Source: Hexactinellida sp. DTS-2022
Taxonomy: Eukaryota > Porifera > Hexactinellida
DNA length: 64,000 nucleotides
NCBI GenBank assembly: GCA_028753945.1
Contig: JAPNXP010000008.1
Location: 2,232,001-2,296,000 of the forward strand
Direction of reading: 5' to 3'
Position 1 is the stretch's first letter. Every line of letters begins with the position of its first letter. Positions 14,525 to 59,121 of the stretch are shown here, in pieces. Position numbers and translations under genes: made by a program. The notes below the pieces were generated by a model, which was not told where the DNA came from, made no database searches, and saw nothing but the letters and a program-made list of their open reading frames with translations.

Positions 14525-17500
14525 TCATGAGAATTTTTTCAATTTACGTTTATCGATACCTATTTGAAGCACAGAGGAGTTGTAGTTTTTAATTTTATTG
14601 GCAAGAAAACAATTAGCAGCAGTAAAGATTAACTTGCTCAAAATACTCCAACTGTACACATCGCAATTAACACAATTTGATTTCCAGATAGCAATATCAT
14701 CATCATTTTCCATGTATATCAAGGTGAGTTCTACTAATAACCTTCTAGAAGGACCGTCTACAAGCAAAGTCAACAGCTGATTATTATTTTCTATTGCAAT
14801 CATTATCTTCCATAAAGTTATAACTGAAGTAAGCACAGGCTCGGACGGATACTTAAGTCCGCCACGATCTGTTAATTGTAAGAGCTTAAACTCAGTATGT
14901 GATTCAACATCAAAAACAAATTCTTTATCATAAGTTAAAGTATCAGTGCACACATGGCATTCCGGAGATCTTTTTAAGAACTTATGGACCGTATAGCCTG
15001 CGATAAAAGCTAACGACTGAAGGATTTGTTGAGAGCATTCAATGGATGATAGATCGCCAATTTCATCAAGAAAAGGCATTACAGCTATTCCATCATCACT
15101 AGATGTATCAGAGGGGGTAGAAAAAGACTTTACAAATGTCTGAATCGTTTGGAAAGCGTCTTGTTGGTCTGCAAACTTGTTTAATATACTAGAAAGTTTC
15201 AGACGACGCTCGGTTTCAAGAATCTGAAGGTAAGAAATATGGTAATTCGAACCCGACATCATACGGTAGAGTCCAAAATGGTGTTCCAACGGGTCAGTTT
15301 GTAAAAAGGATGATAATACGTAGGAAAAGCCACAATTCTCAGTTAGATGGTTAGTTATAAGTGGTAAGGCAGTACAGGCGTGTCTGAAACTAGTATACGT
15401 TTGCTTACTCAATTTACCCGTTTTGTCTGGTAAATCCGGCCAAGCATCTAGCCAAAATACTATACGTGTCAAAAATAAAAATCGTTCATCGTTTAAGATC
15501 AACGGTCTTGAGAGGCTATCATTTGAACGGGTCCCTTTGAACGGCGTATTGATATTGAATATTTTCCAAAGAGTAAGAAGGATACTTACGAAACTAGATG
15601 TATTATTACGATACTCCGGACAACGACTTTCATTTTGGATTTCAAGAGCAGATAGTGTAAGTTCGCTAACAACCTTCAAAACCAATTTGACATTTTGCCT
15701 TTCTAAACTAGATGGAAAACAAGCTTTTACAGTCAAGTGAGGGGCTAGTTTTGCTAAACTGTATCGTTCAGAATTGTAGAGAAGGCGTACATCTTGAAAG
15801 GAAGCAGAATGGACACTGTGGGGGTAGCTACATTTACCAATGTCAATATGTTCAAAATTTGGAAAACGAAATGTTTTATCAAATTTTTTCTGATTTAACC
15901 AATTATTGCGTATACTTTTCAATATATGGACAAAATCAAATGTAAGGAAGAGGAGAGGTCTATTTTCATCAAAAGGGTGGGGTACTCTAGTTTCCAGCTT
16001 TCCACTAAGAGAAAACAATTTAAACAAGTTTACATTCAATGGGTAGAAATCATTTGGACCTTTAAACCACAATGTTCAATATCGATCATACAAGATTTGA
16101 TAGTGGGAAAGATTTTTTTAGCTGAGATAGATGCACATGGTAACAAACGGGTAATACAAGACCATTTCCTATGGGGTCTGACTGAATGGTGGAAAATGGT
16201 GGAAAACATCCGAGAGTGGTGGAAAATGGTGGAAAATGGTGGAAAACTACTTGACTGAATGGTGGAAAATGGTGGAAAATGGTGGAATTTCTGAATTTTC
16301 GTCGAAATGACTGAATGGTGGAATTTCTAAAAATCGACTGAAAGGTGGAAAATGGTGGAAAATGACTGAATGGTGGAAAACGGTGGAAAACGCCTGAATG
16401 GTGGAAAATGGTGGAAAAACGGGGGCTGACTGAATAGTGGAATCTAGTGGAATCGAGTGGAATTTGATTAAATTGTTAAACACTACGTATATGCTATAAG
16501 CTACGTGTGTATCATATTACGTTAATTTTCGCCCTTGTAAAATTGTTTGCAATGATTGAACTAGTGTTGTGCACAAGCAATATCAGTAAGCAATATCAGA
16601 TTTAACATGGATTTCATCCATTTGAATGATTACATTTTTTTCCTCGGAACTAAAGCAAGATGTAGCCTGGGTGAGATAAGTGCAAAAATCATTTTCAAGA
16701 CCGAAGGAAGAATACAACTTATCTAATGTATGGACATGTGGTAGAGTAATACATTCTAAACCCTGAAGATAGATATAACAAGCTGGAGAAATGAGATGAG
16801 TCTTAATGGACATAATTTGTGTTATTATATTGTATCTTCGCCTGTTTTTAGGAATAAATGTATTATCTAATTGACAGAGGATAAATTGAAGCTTAGCTAA
16901 ATCTGAAGAATTGTATGTAGGTCCGTCGATACGCGCTAAATCATCAATAACATTATTTATATGTTTTTTGGCAAGAGGAATATTGTATGAATGTGAGTTA
17001 CAACTAGAATCAGAGACAGATTTTAAGGAGATTTCATGCAGTATAGATTCAATTTGTCGAATATCATTAATTGAATTTACCGAAAGGGGAATAATTTGTC
17101 CATTGGAACCAGGCGGATACAGATAAAAAATTATTTACTTCCAGATATAAATCGACAAATACAGTCCTATCAACCATATTGGGTTGAATGAACCTAGTAT
17201 CATGAATATCAGGATGCCATACTAACCAATTATCAGGTAATGCAATCAAGATTAACTTAGCTTTTAGATCCTGTAAATTTCTGATGACGTACTTATGTTT
17301 CTCCTCGCTCTCAGATAGTAAGCTAAGCTGTAGTGTCTGATTCATAAATTCTTCTTCTTTTGCGTCATACGACAAGCGAGTCCGTTTGGTTGTTGTGGTT
17401 GAAGAGTAGTAGGATGGACAACCAGGAAGTAAGCAGGGAACTGCGCCGTCTCTCAACTTGGGCTTTGCACGAGGTATTTCAGTGAAAGTTCCGTCTCCAT

Positions 17501-27801: not shown

Positions 27802-29453
27802 TACAAACATATAATTACAGATATCTGATAGGTAAGAATTAGCTAAACTACAAAACAGGGACGGGCAATCCTACTGTGAAGAGTGCCAAAATAATAATAT
27901 AGACTACGGGGAACGCCTTAGGTAAATCAATGTGATTTACTGAGTCCCTAAATATGAATTCCCATTCCCCATTCGCCAATAATAAATTTCATATGGATAA
28001 AGTTAACTAATCTAGAGATTTTAACAATATTACCATATATGGAAAGGTGTGAATATCGCATAACTTACATTCCACTAACATTTTCGATAAACTAATATGA
28101 CCGTTGGACTCCCAAAATATGATTTCCTATACGACAATGATACATTTCCTGTGTCTAGCATTAGCGGATTACGCGATATCAATAAGTAACTATACTATTT
28201 TAGGTCTATGCTAATTTTACCGTAAAACGAAGTTTACAGTCCCTATATTAAAGAAGTCCCTGCACAGTGGGCAGAAAGGGCAGATTAGGGGAAATAGACA
28301 TTTTGGTAGTAGTTAGCCACAAATGAAGTATTATTGACCTATAGGTTATTGGTTGCTGCAAACCGAATCGCATAATCAAAAATGATGTATGCAATCTCAA
28401 AACAGTAGTTTTGGACGATCAAATGTATTGTTTTAATTACTAGTTATATTTTTGGTTTAGTAACAATCCTTTATTATTCACCCATGAATGTTTATATTAA
28501 ATCTTAACTTGGGAAAAATATTTCAAAAAGCATATCATATTCCAGGATAATATGATATTGCATTCAATTTAAAGAAGGTAGATGGATGCTGAGTGAAACT
28601 ATCACATGTGCAAATACCCTTAAGAACTGTAGCTCGTTCTTAGTAGCATAGTTGTCAATTGTGGAACATGTCTAGCTCCTGAATTTCATCCGAACCGAAT
28701 TAAATTATCTTACTGAAATTTTAAAAGCATGAATGAATTCAGAACTTGAAGTGCTGATTGATAGATTTTAGCATAAAATATCATAAAAACATTGTTCTTC
28801 ATTAGAAATAATAAAATATATGGAAACATTGGAACTTCTATTGAAATCTAAAATTCTAATTTTATTAAATTTTCTTAATTGAAAGGGGTTTTGGTAGGCA
28901 GAGACCATAGTTCAGCTGGGAAAGTTTTCCGTCACGTTCCGTCACTTAGCAACCAAGTGCATTTGATAGAGAATTTTCTCTAGTTAAATATAAACTGATT
29001 TAAATTTTGGGCCAAAATAGGCCAAAGAAGTCCGAAGACTAAATATGGGAAATAAATGTATTTAATATTTATCTAGAGTGGGATTGATAAAATGTATGCT
29101 CATCTAAAAGCATGAGGTAGCTAGTTTACTAAATGTTTCAGTATTAATCTACGATAAAAATTGATTCGAATAAGCTTATGATAGTGCATATCTGCTGCTT
29201 TTATATTGTTAGAAATACTATGAAACTTGATAGCATAATAGAAACTCCTACAATCGCTTGGAATTCGTATATGATGACTGCAACTAAAATTGACATATTT
29301 TCACTACCAATTGGAATGTGCTAAAGGTAATTACATTTCTTTGATCCTTAGGTATCTTAGAAATAGATAATATATCAATTTCACGAATAAGGTTGCATGA
29401 AAAATAACGCTATTTCCACTGGTTTGCCCACTGTGCCTTGGTGTAGGTAAACC
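27802..29453. other. Low-repeat stretch downstream of the nuclear receptor
   Basis: AT-rich, without terminal repeats or open frames I can support. It may contain the 3' flank of the nuclear receptor gene, which ends at 29698 on the minus strand. Confidence 0.5.
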
Positions 29454-52502: not shown

Positions 52503-53213
52503 CAGGGGCGGCTGAAGCGATCATGCTGGTCAGGTCATTGGCCTGCCCACTTTTATCAAGTGGCCAGGCCGATAGCCTGATCACTCCTACATCACTAGTT
52601 ACGCCGGTTAAGCCCAGGGCCGGATACCTAAATTTCTGGTGGGGATTTCGAGCGAGCGTAGCGAGCGATTATTAGGGGGGTCACGGGGTGTTTATCCCCC
52701 CTGGATTTTTTTTTTACTCGGATGGGCTCCAATATCGATATCTACCGTTCGATATAAACCTTCAATAAGGTCTAGGTGCCGACCAAGTTCCTGCAGGGTG
52801 AGAACAGAATATATGATGTACACTGTTAATGCTAGATAACAAAATCTAAGGTATCAAAAGTTTCTAAACTAAAATATATACTGTAAATGCCAGAAATTTA
52901 AAAGATCTTCACCAAAATCATTCAAAGTAAGTGAGGTGCATTAATGTAGAGGGTCTACGAAATCTACGAATTAATGCTAAATTGCAGAATAGTGACAATA
53001 ATCGCATGTGATGATAGGTATACTGGACATAAGTTAGTATAAACAATACCAAAGGTCGAATAACATCTACTTTGATTGAGTTTATTTGATTAGTTTTACC
53101 AAAATTATATATCTGAAAATCTAGTGGGGGGTATGCATCCCCCCATCCCCCCCTGGATCCGCTACTGGTCAAGCCATGGCCTAACCACTTTTTAATTGCT
53201 TCCGCCGGCCCTG
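52503..53213. mobile_element. hAT-like insertion in P3 (outer element)
   Basis: The ends CAGGGGCGGCTGAAGC and GCTTCCGCCGGCCCTG match the small MITE at 29454-29546. No 8-bp duplication is visible, so one flank may have changed. Another hAT-like element is nested at 52615-53167. Confidence 0.65.
52615..53167. mobile_element. hAT-like element nested in the outer insertion
   Basis: The ends CAGGGCCGGATACC and GGATCCGCTACTG are flanked by 8-bp repeats with one mismatch (GTTAAGCC 52607-52614, GTCAAGCC 53168-53175). Runs of G/C lie at both ends. It is 553 bp with no supported coding. Confidence 0.7.
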
Positions 53214-54603
53214 CAATGGGTAATAGTGCAGCAGCAGAGCTAGAACCAAGAGGGACTAGCCATACAATGGTAGATAACTTAGTCATTAAACTAGATACCA
53301 TTATAGAAAATACTGTGGTGGGTGGGTCTTCCGGATGATCAATAGAGCCAATAATTCTACCACCTTTATAACTAGCATCGCTACGTATATGAACTTCGTC
53401 TTCTGAAGTATAACATGCCTCTCTAAATCTTTGAATGTAGATGAAAATTCATTAAGTACACCTAAATATTCACTCTCTAGACCAATTGAATTTATAATTT
53501 TGAGTAGATTACGTTCATGAGGGAGATTCAAACAATTTGAGAATTGGATTAGCCGAAAACAAGCGGGAGAAATGCCGTGTACTTGAGGGAAAAAACCTGC
53601 GTTGTCACGCTATAACGGCGCCCATATTTTGAAATTATTAATTGTCTCAATTGATCAAGTAGAAACATAATCCCAATTTTGGGTAATATAGGTAAGTTCT
53701 CGATTTGGGGTCTCTGAAATTCTATATCTTGAACACTCTGCTCTATTAGTTCAATGGCACTTTGCAACTCAATAATAGCATTTTCAACATGCGTTTTAAC
53801 GGAGGGTTGGCGTTGGTTGGGTTTGCATTTAGGACTAATAACTGGGAATGTTTCAATTCTACTAACAATGTCTCAATCTGGCGGATGTCATTAATTTTGT
53901 TGAGAAATAAATATATTTGGCAATGTGTTGATCAAAACCATTAATCAATAAACATTGGTCTATTACAAGTGAACATTGAATCGAAGGTTGGTTATCTAAA
54001 GTGGTGATTTTTAGAAAAAACAAGGTGTCAGTGTCGGGTTTGTGGACGACCCAAATATTAGAAAGATCGATGCAACTCAGCTTATCAACAACATCACTAA
54101 GAATACTGATTGAGAACTAATCTATGGTAGATGTATTGTCCACTATGCTCAGATTGATTGCAGTTTGAACCATTGTCAGCTCTCTATCGTCTCTCGAAAT
54201 TCTTTTTGTCTTATCTTTAGTGTTTGTCAAGTAGCTGGGGCAGTTCGGGAATATAGTTGGTACAGCAGTCTTCGTCAGGGACAATCGGTATCGTGGTGCC
54301 ACAACCATCTTCTGCCATCAAAATATTCGAATGTCCTTTCAATGAATTCCTCTTTGAAGTGGAGTATACAAACCTAAGAAATGATTCAATAATTTCGAAT
54401 GTGAACTAATGATTAGTTTAAAATATGTGTATAAGAGTATTTACCTTTATATATTTATATTGTTCTGGTAATCTTCTACAGGTCTTGGAATGACTCTAAA
54501 CCATTTTTCACGAAGTTGTTCATCCTTGGGAAAACTAAATACTCTTGTGAAATGATCTTCTCCCCGATAATTCGAGGTACATCCTGGTACGATACAACTC
54601 ATC

Positions 54604-56016
54604 TCGTTGATAGTGAAGTTAGAACAAGTGTGTATAGTAGATAATAATAATAATTTCAAAATCGCTTATTTATGTTGAATAGTTAATTTAATCAATTAAT
54701 CAAATAGTGTTAGGATCAAATAATGTTAGAATAAGGATTGATTTGTGTTTGAACCTAGTGTACACTTGTTATTTTTTATACTACTTGTCAAGCCTATTTA
54801 TAAAAAGTGATCTGTAAGTGTATATAAGAGTTGTACATCTCAGTTATATTATTTTTGATGGCATAATCATGACTAGATCAGGAATTGGTTGCAATTTAGA
54901 AACCTTGGTTCCTTTTTGAATTTTTGATTTACCAAAGTGTATTTCTTGTTGAATAGATATTTGATAATATACAAAATTTATGCAACCTCATTTCAGTGAA
55001 CAATAAAGACGCAAATGAATTTCTCAACCAGAGTGAGAGTAGTTCAAACGCCGCCTGAAAATACATCAACATTTTGAATTTGAATGAATCCACGTTTAAG
55101 GGTGCTTCGACCGAAATCACTATTAGCTCTATGAGATATTTCTAGTCTTTGATCATTTGTTAACTCTTTGAATCGAAAGTTTCGAAACATAATTGCTTTT
55201 CAATTAACTAAGAATATCTCCATTTCAGTGTAACTTTCATTGTTCTATTTTCGGCATGCTATTGAATTCTTCAGGAATCGGGCTTCCATAGCAATAACAC
55301 TGTAGTGTTGAAATTGACTTAATTAATTTGAGGAAACTATAGAAGCTAGAGTTACAAAATCTTCCTGGTTATTTCTTAACCACTATTAGAAAAAGGTGAT
55401 GCACTTCTGGATAAATCGGGTCTGTGTTAAGCTTCCTGGAAATGAAAACGAAGCGAAATAGACAAAAATACTCAATAAAATGCGATATCTTTGCCTTTCT
55501 TGGGTCAAATATATATGAAACGATTGTACGATTAGCACCAAGTTGCATGATAAATTTACTTATACTAAATACAGGTATCTCCCTAAATTTCATAGCTCTA
55601 GACGTATTCTTTCGTTTGGAAAATATTCATCGAAGTGTAAATTATGGGTTTTCAGATACCAGTGAGTAAAGTTAAATAAATAATTCTTTCAGACAAAAAT
55701 ATGATTCACTGGTGTTTCATCCCGGTTTAGAATCTTCCGTTAAGCTACCGTTCGCTAAATCATTTAAATATATAATTAGCTATAATTAATCTAATTCCAT
55801 ACAAGTCGCTCCGTTTTATCTGAGTCCGCATTCTTTTGGGACATCCTTCCCGGAAATAATACAGTGATAACGTCGTGATTAATGTTGTAATATGTATAAT
55901 ATGTCTACACTAGTTGGGATATAGTAAGTATATACTAAATATTTATTAGAATTGACTTGAACTATATCATATAGTCAATCAATCTGTAGATAATGCAATA
56001 AGAAAAGAAAATATAT
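54604..56016. other. Stretch without recognised genes
   Basis: AT-rich. No P-type terminal repeat could be found upstream of the P3 THAP start. Short open frames near 55369-55669 overlap on both strands and match nothing I recognise. Confidence 0.45.
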
Positions 56017-56087
56017 GCAGATCATGGATTGGAACCCATGATCAACTGATTGTTGGCCATATATGCTAACCACTGAGATATATGTGC
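56017..56087 (-). tRNA. tRNA-like relic (pseudogene or SINE head)
   Basis: On the minus strand, 71 nt carry an A-box-like CTCAGTGGTTAGCATA and a B-box-like GGGTTCCAATCC with tRNA spacing. The T-arm region forms a strong 8-bp stem (GATCATGG with CCATGATC). The outer stem pairs at only about five of seven positions, and no sound anticodon arm can be drawn, so it is not a working tRNA. No A-rich tail was seen to prove a SINE. Confidence 0.4.
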
Positions 56088-56384
56088 TTATTAATATTAG
56101 TTTATATGATAGAATTATTTAAGTGCACGATATATTACCCAAAATTAAAAGAATGTCAGTTGCGATATTGAATAATGCTGAATTATCAATAATGACGTCA
56201 TTAAATTGGCATTCTGAAGACATTGGATAATTTATTTCAAAGATTTTTCACTTCTCAAATAATTATATGATATATTAGCTTCATTTCAATGTATAAACTC
56301 GCTTTTCAATTTTGCAAATAAAGCGTTTAAATTGTCAGTCGAAGCATCCCTAATTCTCTGAAATCCAAATTCAACAAATTAAAA

Positions 56385-58147
56385 TTGTCAAGGGTAAACT
56401 ACGTGAAATCGAAAAATATTGATGCCTGGAATACTCAACCTTTTGTTCCAGTTGAAGCACAGGATCTCAATTTTCCCAAGAAACGGAAATGTGTTTCTAC
56501 TGATGATTCACTCGTCACTGTAGCCACTGAAACTCTTTGCAGAAATTGCAATAGTCAAACTGCATGCTTAAATTGCTCCGATGGGATTTTTACTGAACAA
56601 AATTCTGACCAGCGAAAACACATCAGTGAGTTGAAATTGGAATCCCGAAGGTCTAGGCTCAAAGTCTTAATGCAGCCATTAATTTTATAGCTAGTCGTGA
56701 AGATGTTAACGGAAAGGATATTGGAACCTATGCACTCAAATTAATTTCTAATGTTGAGCATGACAGGAAGGTATCTAATGTCTGTTCTGAAATTTTCGAA
56801 ACAGGTACTTTTGCACAGCCCCTGAAACACTTACCAATTGAAAAAATTGCTTTCTTCCTTGATAGATTGGAAATTGGTAAAAAAAACACTCGAACATTCG
56901 AAAATTATGCAATACAGAGGGGATTATTTTTCCAACATATAAAAAAGTTGCTTCATTTCGATCCGAAATCTCTCTTTCATATTGAATTAAATTAATCGAA
57001 TGTGATGGGCAAATAGTTGGTGCAGGTTACTCTTATTTCGAGATCATACAACACACCACTGAAAAGATTCTAAAAATGTTTACAGTAGATCCAGGACAAT
57101 ACCCAATAGAAGTAGAAATTGCAGATGGGCTCGATGGTTCAGGTAGTCATAGAATCTACAACCAAATAAGCAACAACCCCATTTTTTCAACCAAAAACTT
57201 TTACTGTTTGCTTTCAATGTACTTTCGATTAAGGACAGAAACTCTACTACACCATGGTACAACAACCTTCCGAATTCACCTTTTACCACTCGACCAGTTA
57301 GTTTGTTGGCCAAGAACGAATCTATTGATACAGTTGAATTTCAGATGAAATAATTTATCAACCCTCCAACAATGCAACTCGAAAAAGATGGCATGGAGTT
57401 ATCAGGTGGCCACTGTATTGTTATAGTACGTCGTATGTCAAAAATATTGAGTAGTGCTGGTGGCGTTTCTTGCCAATTATGCACTATGACACATGTTCAG
57501 CTCAAAGACCTTGAGCTAATAAGATCTGGTTTCCCGATTAACCGCTAGATTCAAGATGCGATTGCACTGTTTAATGACATTGATCAAGAAGAATTTCTAA
57601 AGTTAGATTCTAATTCGAGATTTGGTTTAACTTATCCACAAAACTTCTACTTTAGATATTATCCCGGCATCACCTCTCCATAGCTATTTATGCGTATTCC
57701 GCTGGTTGATGTTGCTTATATATCACCTCGATGCAGGGTCACATAAATGGTCTCCAACATCTCCATTGATACAGACATCCATGAAACGAGTTAGAGCTAT
57801 ATTAACAGAAAAAACCGGTTTTCAAATTGATCTTCCATCCTCCGATGGAGGTACCACTACAACTGGAAATGTTGCAAGAGATTGTTTTTCTGATAAACGC
57901 CACTTCTCGAAGTGGGCAACCTCTACCATTAGCGAGAAAGATCGAGAATTAATCCAAATATTACACCAAAATCTTTCCGCTATTTTAAGGTTATTTAACA
58001 GCAGCCACAAAATCGATACAACACAATTTAATGTACATACTTTGCAATGCTACTTATGAATATATTGCAGTAACATTCCACTGGGCTAATATTACCCCAT
58101 CACTCCACAAATTGCTGGCCCATTCCGCAGACTGTTTCCTTGGATAA
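56385..58147 (+). pseudogene. RAG1-like transposase relic
   Basis: Consecutive frames align in order with the RAG1 core. These are a helical stretch (56669-56995), EVEIADGLDGSGSH at about 57112 with D (57124-57126) in the place of RAG1 D600 (CDGMGD), and SLLAKNESIDTV (about 57300) in the place of the second acidic site. CQLC follows at 57471-57482 (RAG1 zinc ligands C727/C730), then DQEEFLKLDSN, HLDAGSHKWSPTS and SDGGTTTTGNVARDCF (compare NGNFARKLM). Last comes LHKLLAHSAD at 58103-58132, with two His spaced as RAG1 H937/H942. It ends before the third acidic site (E962). At least five stops or frame changes separate the pieces, and no RAG2-like gene is present. Transib is the main alternative; the CQLC and the His pair favour RAG1-like. 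Confidence 0.72.
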
Positions 58148-59121
58148 AGGAGAAGCTATATATGTATAGGCCAAAATTAATGTATTTAGTTGACATAATC
58201 ATTCTATGGTTTAATCCTGTTTATATTAGCAATTACTTATCCTTATTTAATAACTATGATGCAAAGTTTCGACAATTCATGGTATGGGGGAATCTTTCCT
58301 GGGGGGGGGGGGAATCCCAGGGCCCCCCCTCTGTATCAAACCCTGATCTAGAAAGAAAATTCTCATTCGAAGTAAACATATAAACATAAAAGATATTCTT
58401 GTTAGGTTGACAACTCAGAGTGATCCCATACTCGCTAACTACCAATTTTCAATTATCAGCAAAAATATATATTGAAAATTTAACCCAACAGGATCTTATT
58501 GTGGATAACTTAACATTGTGTAAGTAAGATCAGCAAGGATGTAAAGACTGCATGTTATGAAAAATTACTTGATTAATAGAGGTTATTTCCATTGCTAGAT
58601 AAGTTTAGCTTACTTATACATGTCTGATAGTTTATATGCAGTATATGTAGTAGTGATTCATACTTGATCATTTATTGTAAATTATGATTACGTTATGTTT
58701 CAAACAATTGAAATCGTACAACTAAAGTAAATGTCTCAATAGATTCCTAGACATCGATAACCTATAGGTTGGTAGTATATTCTACGGGTCTATCTCGATC
58801 CATCAAGGAGTTATCCAATAAAAACAAATAAGTGTCCATTTATGATGACGTCATATCTCACACATTTTAAGCTATACAATTAAAGTAAATGTCTCAAAAG
58901 GTTCCTAGACATCGATAGCCAATTAGTTGTTAATACTTTTCGAATGGCTAGCTGTGCTCTAAATACCTAATCGTTGTAAACTCCAAATTTTCCAACTGGA
59001 CATAATTCGAGGGTGCTAAACGTGAGTAATTTCAAGCATAATGACCCCAATAAACGTCCCGTTCCATGTGGCGTTATGCATATTTATCTGGCCTATCGCG
59101 TTATCTGGATTAGCTCGAATA
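58148..59121. other. Stretch without recognised genes
   Basis: It contains a G-run and C-run block (58298-58331) that could be a MITE end, and a duplicated block (AAAGTAAATGTCTCAA near 58723 and 58876, each followed by TTCCTAGACATCGATA). Nothing else is supported. Confidence 0.5.

Follow-up and report, generated by a model that had tools for sequence, protein, structure and literature searches.

The damaged transposase gene in the window

In the 64,000-nucleotide stretch analysed here (hereafter the window), tblastn with related proteins revealed, on the plus strand at positions 54996-58466, a transposase homologous to the catalytic core of RAG1, whose pieces lie in order although frameshifts, stops, a deletion and an insertion have disrupted the gene. 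Its translation passed through eight blocks in frames 0, 0, 2, 1, 0, 1, 2 and 0, with four in-frame stops. At the DNA level, homology to L028, the nearest fetched copy from the same genome, spanned 54764-58993. A first-pass annotation, made from the letters alone, had placed a RAG1-like transposase fossil at 56385-58147; this interval captured the middle of the gene, but fell short of the start of coding at 54996 and of the full homology; an insert at 55100-56350 splits the gene.

The copy begins with a 5' non-coding remnant (54764-54995, plus strand), of which 54764-54945 was 76% identical to L028 2797-2983, and an 80% block begins at 54984. Its true 5' end was not found, a search for the L028 5' end (400 bp) in 53001-54990 giving nothing above shuffles. 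The first transposase coding block (54996-55099, plus strand) starts with VNNKDANEFLNQ, contains one in-frame stop and corresponds to residues 1-40 of P0009 (tblastn, E 1.3e-6); the DNA of 54984-55099 was 80% identical to L028. There the gene is interrupted by the foreign insert (55100-56350, 1251 bp), which has the ends GGGTGCTTCGAC and inverted arms at 55096-55114 and 56335-56353, is flanked by a TAA duplication (55097-55099 and 56351-56353) and is absent from L028; we take it to be a Harbinger-like MITE nested in the transposase gene. The main transposase remnant (56354-58131, plus strand), delimited by tblastn and translation, runs through frames 0, 2, 1, 0, 1 and 2 with three in-frame stops, and 56351-58131 was 90% identical to L028 3342-5111. 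It is followed by 216 bp (58132-58347) that found no match in L028 on DNA comparison and replace 97 bp of it (L028 5112-5208), and then by a C-terminal coding remnant together with a 3' non-coding part with internal repeats (58348-58993, plus strand), which aligned to L028 5209-6003 in overlapping blocks (58348-58935, 85%; 58682-58993, 89%). In a by-eye comparison with the right end of L028, a decayed right terminus was recognized at 58961-59000 (plus strand), where the inner block AAATACCTAATC is kept and the terminal heptamer is gone. Neither a heptamer nor a target duplication was seen at the window copy itself.

The four motifs on which the annotation had relied were all present, on the plus strand and in order. 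ADGLDGSGSH (57121-57150), assigned by eye and by alignment, contains the first active-site Asp (equivalent to D701 of BbRAG1L), and the motifs CQLC (57471-57482; Cys zinc pair), GNVARDCF (57865-57888) and HKLLAH (58106-58123; His zinc pair) were located by eye. According to the sequence, alignment and translation, the active-site Glu equivalent to E764 of BbRAG1L is kept within LLAKNES (57318-57320, plus strand). The alignment gap and the translation located at 57432-57437 (plus strand) the junction of a short in-frame deletion in which the second active-site Asp, equivalent to D811, is gone; this position held D in all 27 sponge-type rows and a gap in the window row. The last active-site Glu (equivalent to E1063) was lost with the replacement at 58132-58347, and the window row is gapped there as well. 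With D, E and H kept and the second D and the last E lost from the five active-site positions, the window copy, as judged from its sequence, cannot work as a transposase. In the relatives, D, E, D and H were found in 27 of 27 sponge-type rows and the last E in 26, the other row being truncated.

A Pfam search recognized none of the eight transposase pieces of the window and returned one sub-threshold, unrelated match (E 0.19), so the RAG1-like call of the annotation was not a trivial one. Rfam gave nothing in the window at gathering scores. Two neighbouring observations were also made. A short Cys-rich stretch, CRNCNSQTACLNC, lies at 56540-56580, ahead of the NBD-like block of the copy; a portion of this stretch (CLNC) recurs in P0002. 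An ORF at 54447-54665 on the minus strand, immediately upstream of the dead element, encodes a THAP domain (Pfam, E 1.1e-7) and could be the gene of another transposon.

Relatives of the copy and the structure of their ends

The window pieces joined in order matched 66 proteins (best E 5.5e-242), among which the 11 with an organism label were all from the glass sponge Oopsacas minuta; going by these names, the host of the window is most likely a glass sponge too. The Pfam annotation of the 66 consisted of PF26100 alone or of nothing, whereas most of the RAG1L proteins matched in a separate search bear several additional domains next to it. In the window's genome (112.4 Mb, 18 contigs), a search with one C-terminal piece (57631-58059, 142 aa), in which 150 of 400 candidates were scored, yielded at least 150 matching stretches, the window included and a few copies giving two stretches; the best other match was 75% identical with E 1.9e-62. 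So many matches from one piece alone, and at such an E value, indicated that the homology is not due to chance. The annotation's claim of a broken RAG1-core relative in an animal-type genome was borne out. The annotation had also proposed a search for intact relatives, and 13 of the 150 scored stretches were found to lie in open frames of at least 700 aa without internal stops.

For closer comparison, 20 stretches of 9.5 kb were fetched, selected for a high-ranking match, a long open frame or a near-identical partner. L025-L027, being one duplicated segment, were counted once, which left 18 independent places. These three places belong to different contigs and share 99.99-100% of their letters along at least 9.4 kb, with an array of ~166-bp tandem units at one end; they may represent a recent duplication of large size, a sizeable mobile unit with a Transib copy inside, or an assembly effect.

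Twelve elements, 2975-6100 bp long (nine of them 2975-3665 bp), combined two ends with an ORF of 708-743 aa. In 11 of the 12, the transposase was the only ORF of at least 100 aa, and L031 adds a 102-aa ORF inside a foreign 3-kb insert; no RAG2-like second gene was found in any of the 12. The annotation's statement that no RAG2-like gene lies nearby thus agreed with what could be read from the ORFs of these related elements rather than from the window copy. A genome-wide search for the RAG2 family gave no match either, but its controls stayed silent too, so that it carries no weight.

Blocks of L031, L032 and L039, at three places, were 98.7-99.8% identical, and those of L029 and L030 98.4-99.0%. 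Such near-identity at different places suggests that the family has been mobile recently in evolutionary terms; the word fossil is therefore apt for the window copy, but not for a family with uninterrupted, nearly identical copies. In addition, several subfamilies of the window's genome paired in the tree with different Oopsacas or other proteins (e.g., L037 with P0031), which speaks for a long residence of the family in one host lineage.

The heptamer CACAGTG is that of the RSS, the end signal used in antibody genes. When ends were searched for on both sides of the coding part at the 18 independent places, without regard to the flanks, CACAGTGG, which includes this heptamer, was found at both ends in 15, while L023 had neither end, L034 the left one only and L040 the right one only. 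CACAGTG-type inverted ends, which the annotation had suggested looking for, are thus present in the relatives, and the window copy's own heptamer was not found. Exact 5-bp target duplications flanked 13 of the 15 two-ended elements; in L037 the flanks matched in four of five letters, and L024 had no duplication in register but a 4-letter repeat one step off. As a control, left and right flanks of different elements matched exactly in only 2 of 182 pairings. L028 itself carries CACAGTGG ends and an exact TGGGG duplication, and the left end of L014 was predicted from its right flank CTCCA and then found, with CTCCA on both sides.

Past CACAGTGG, the left and right ends differ, yet they share an inner block (like GAATAGG), which in most elements is located at position 21 in left ends and at position 30 in right ends, i.e., 13 or 22 bp after the heptamer. 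We analysed this offset in 12 elements (11 autonomous representatives and the non-autonomous element of the window). At each offset from -16 to 16, the best-matching 14-mers of the two ends were scored and summed over the elements. The sum was highest at offset 9 (118), with 88 as the maximum elsewhere; 300 shuffles did not exceed 85 and 200 random re-pairings did not exceed 107, the latter maximum being high because the inner block is common to subfamilies. An offset of 9 or 10 with at least 9 of 14 matches was obtained in 11 of the 12 elements, two of which (L032 and L036) tied with another offset; the offset was 10 in L033 and L038, and L035 was weak (5 of 14). The left end of L014 departs from this arrangement, its offset being ~14 as estimated by eye. 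As a hold-out, 11 further loci were inspected, and eight had a CACAGTGG right end with the block motif at position 31 (six) or 32 (two), counted to the first A; they amount to five new end types, with L008 and L017 as well as L014 and L018 sharing ends and L007 repeating L022. The left ends also carry an A-rich stretch, which we note beside the vertebrate-type nonamer.

Placement and rival readings

The transposase of Transib is related to the catalytic core of RAG1, and Transib is the RAG1 superfamily. When profile A1, built from 18 proteins (13 sponge-type and 5 others), was run on solved structures, HzTransib scored 205.8 bits, BbRAG1L 125.4 and RAG1 77-85, and the RAG1 nonamer-binding domain (3gna) was matched weakly (E 0.031). 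A profile of 27 sponge-type rows alone gave 196-408 bits on 26 Transib-type proteins and 162 on HzTransib, against 48-107 on 18 RAG1L proteins and 44 on vertebrate RAG1. The Pfam RAG1 family (PF12940) scored 18.7-23.8 bits, below its cut-off of 25, on four of six sponge-type relatives and exceeded the cut-off on two of three others. The annotation had allowed for an adverse outcome in which all pieces would fall into Transib with no affinity to RAG1; the placement in Transib was confirmed, but an affinity to RAG1 remains, since Transib is itself the RAG1 superfamily and since PF12940 gives these sub-cut-off scores.

The distance from the Cys zinc pair (CxxC) to the active-site His was 64-66 residues in 22 of 28 sponge-type rows, including 64 in the window row; in the other six, the spacing pattern caught an earlier LH (three) or was not found (three). 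For comparison, RAG1 has 63 residues in this interval, the measured RAG1L rows have 58-65 and HzTransib has 28. The region concerned corresponds to alpha11-alpha12 of the zinc-binding domain, which is lost in Subgroup II (PMC9435367), and judging from the sequence (the spacing and the residues aligned with profile A1) the sponge-type proteins keep it. None of the 12 sponge-type rows of one clade (one of them truncated, and L034 with an odd C-terminus) showed the CTT1 zinc knuckle (CxxC...H...C), which 14 of the other 15 rows possess. The window copy grouped with this CTT1-less clade in the 74-row tree. Within the clade, L021, L022 and L036 have exact duplications and uninterrupted ORFs, so the loss of CTT1, it seems, did not stop movement. 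The N-terminal 100 aa held 0-2 Cys in 9 of the 12 related elements, and a RING or Cys-rich domain is thus not evident there.

In the 74-row tree, all 28 sponge-type rows, the window included, formed one group (100/100), and RAG1L and RAG1 formed a group of their own without the sponge copies, at 100/100, in both the 74-row and 26-row trees. The sponge group joined Transib-type proteins (most with CTT1; one, P0161, from Hydra) to the exclusion of HzTransib, with support of 94/89 in the 74-row tree and 96/95 in the 26-row tree. These trees are unrooted and contain HzTransib and RAG1 as long branches, one Subgroup II sequence and no Chapaev; bacterial relatives were sought as an outgroup, but none of 107 pattern matches was confirmed in a profile A1 scan of genome contigs, and the trees therefore stay unrooted. 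Taken in the narrow sense of RAG1L, the RAG1-like label of the annotation was not supported, as the profile bits favour Transib-type proteins and RAG1L and RAG1 stand apart, with the caveat that an arrangement keeping sponge and RAG1L sequences on one side of a branch was not rejected by the AU test (26 rows, p 0.143). Membership in the Transib superfamily is thus firmly established and a likeness to Subgroup I is put forward with moderate confidence, while membership in RAG1L is not claimed.

On this basis, the feature in the window is very probably a dead copy of a cut-and-paste Transib DNA transposon belonging to a lineage seen only in apparent glass sponges. It could alternatively be what remains of a genuine RAGL transposon (RAG1L plus RAG2L) after loss of the RAG2L part, which would place RAG proper in a sponge. 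Such an origin would accord with the RAG1L-like CxxC-to-His spacing of the window row, with the CTT1 knuckle of related copies and with the grouping that survived the AU test, but RAG1L and RAG1 form their fully supported separate group, the profile gives RAG1L proteins much lower scores than Transib-type ones, the 12 related elements lack a second gene save the 102-aa ORF in the foreign insert of L031, and an N-terminal RING or Cys-rich domain is not evident in nine of them; we consider it highly improbable. RAG1L had been entertained as the main reading and was set aside on account of the separate group, the lower bits and the single-gene elements.

That the copy belongs with the insect-type Transibs (Subgroup II) or with Chapaev, instead of with the CTT1-bearing Transibs, also appears very unlikely: HzTransib is indeed the best single solved-structure match of profile A1, well above BbRAG1L, and the window's own clade is without CTT1, but HzTransib fell outside the sponge plus Transib-type group in both trees (which held one Subgroup II sequence and no Chapaev), the region missing in HzTransib is kept in the sponge-type proteins, and the knuckle is present in nearly all rows outside one clade. 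That the locus might be a domesticated host gene or its pseudogene, and not a transposon copy, could draw on the heptamer and duplication not being visible at the window copy. This reading is largely refuted, and hardly credible in our view, given the ends and exact duplication of L028, the at least 150 family matches in the genome, and the fact that the window copy reaches the same right terminus as L028 with the inner block surviving.

For the preferred Transib reading, the following mechanism is proposed. In intact relatives, a single RNase H-fold transposase (~710-740 aa) with a D-E-D-E active site would bind two unlike inverted ends, consisting of the CACAGTG heptamer and the inner block ~13 or 22 bp further in, nick at the heptamer and cut the element out; joining at a new site with a 5-bp stagger would then give rise to the 5-bp duplications. 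The homology, active-site residues, zinc pairs, ends, duplications, single-gene anatomy and near-identical dispersed copies were read directly in the relatives, while nick-hairpin chemistry, the pairing of unlike ends and present-day activity are attributed to the family by analogy with the biochemistry of Transib and RAG.

Known systems and possible further traces of the family in the window

HzTransib, like the sponge family, has a single gene and generates 5-bp duplications. This Subgroup II member (PDB 6pqn) also shares the catalytic core of the Transib superfamily, but its Cys zinc pair and active-site His are 28 residues apart, as against 64 here, and it falls outside the sponge group in the trees. 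The Subgroup I Transibs described by Tao et al. (2022; PMC9435367) are similar in their single transposase, the CTT1 of many copies, an alpha11-alpha12-like region, the 5-bp duplications and the asymmetric ends, which all Subgroup I Transibs possess (PMC9435367). The sponge lineage is distinguished from them by forming its own clade, by its exact CACAGTG ends and by the CTT1-less sub-clade to which the window copy belongs. Its copy number is also far above the typical figure for autonomous Transibs, of which an animal genome usually has a single copy or a few at the most, according to Kapitonov and Koonin (PMC4411706).

The RAGL transposons, e.g., ProtoRAG (BbRAG1L, PDB 6b40), resemble the sponge family in their RAG1-core homology, in the CCGHC/CTT1 knuckle that many sponge-type copies share, in asymmetric ends starting with CAC and in 5-bp duplications, whereas the sponge family is without RAG2L and the long N-terminal region, gives a weaker profile match and falls into a separate tree group. 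The spacers of ProtoRAG are 27/31 bp (PMC8289069). In AanRAGL of Aureococcus, the two end blocks are spaced 4/13 bp and hence 9 bp apart (PMC9435367), which is the offset found in most sponge elements; AanRAGL differs from them in carrying RAG2L and in its terminus CACACCC (PMC9435367). The Oopsacas genome paper (PMC10280926) reports transposition-related orthogroups and 15.44% DNA transposons, its main text being without the word RAG1; PMC7204232, PMC8355894, PMC10282587 and PMC11844651 are cited alongside. We found no report of Transib in sponges, including glass sponges (Hexactinellida), in the open-access papers searched, which were covered mostly at a level below full text.

The family is a new lineage within the known Transib superfamily and is of interest for its copy number and end structure, the window copy alone being an ordinary dead transposon of an interesting family. 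A wider interpretation, which we advance tentatively as one possibility, is that this may be an old, high-copy and recently mobile glass-sponge Transib lineage near the RAG1/Transib fork, with perfect CACAGTG heptamers, a 12/23-like asymmetry of the inner block (13/22 bp) and no RAG2, one clade of which lost the end-binding knuckle CTT1 and yet kept moving, as RAG1 later lost its own. If this were true, such an old RAG2-less sponge lineage would be a model, provided by nature, for the precursor state of the RAG transposon and for the way in which a single-protein ancestor distinguishes one of its ends from the other. With at least 150 stretches and many diverged subfamilies, the genome provides natural replicate sets of ends and transposases, which could be used to test 12/23-like asymmetry without RAG2 and whether CTT1 is dispensable.

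Apart from the dead copy, the window contains a non-autonomous element on the minus strand (28263-29435) with CACAGTGG ends, right-type at 28263 and left-type at 29435, whose flanks CCCTG and CCTTG agree in four of five letters. One end has the inner-block motif at position 22 and the other has it twice, at 22 and 31; none of 300 single-letter shuffles of the window yielded such an end pair. The element had 58 full or partial matches in the genome; those at 97, 96 and 85% identity run the full length between identical edges. Three full-length copies, the one in the window among them, were inspected for an exact 5-bp duplication and none had one, the other two being without any 5-letter duplication in register. 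A lone CACAGTGG is located at 305-312; the window has three exact matches to this sequence, none of which is a nearby partner for it. At 17028-17102 on the plus strand, tblastn detected a 25-residue scrap resembling the C-terminus of P0038 (E 9e-4), perhaps another remnant.
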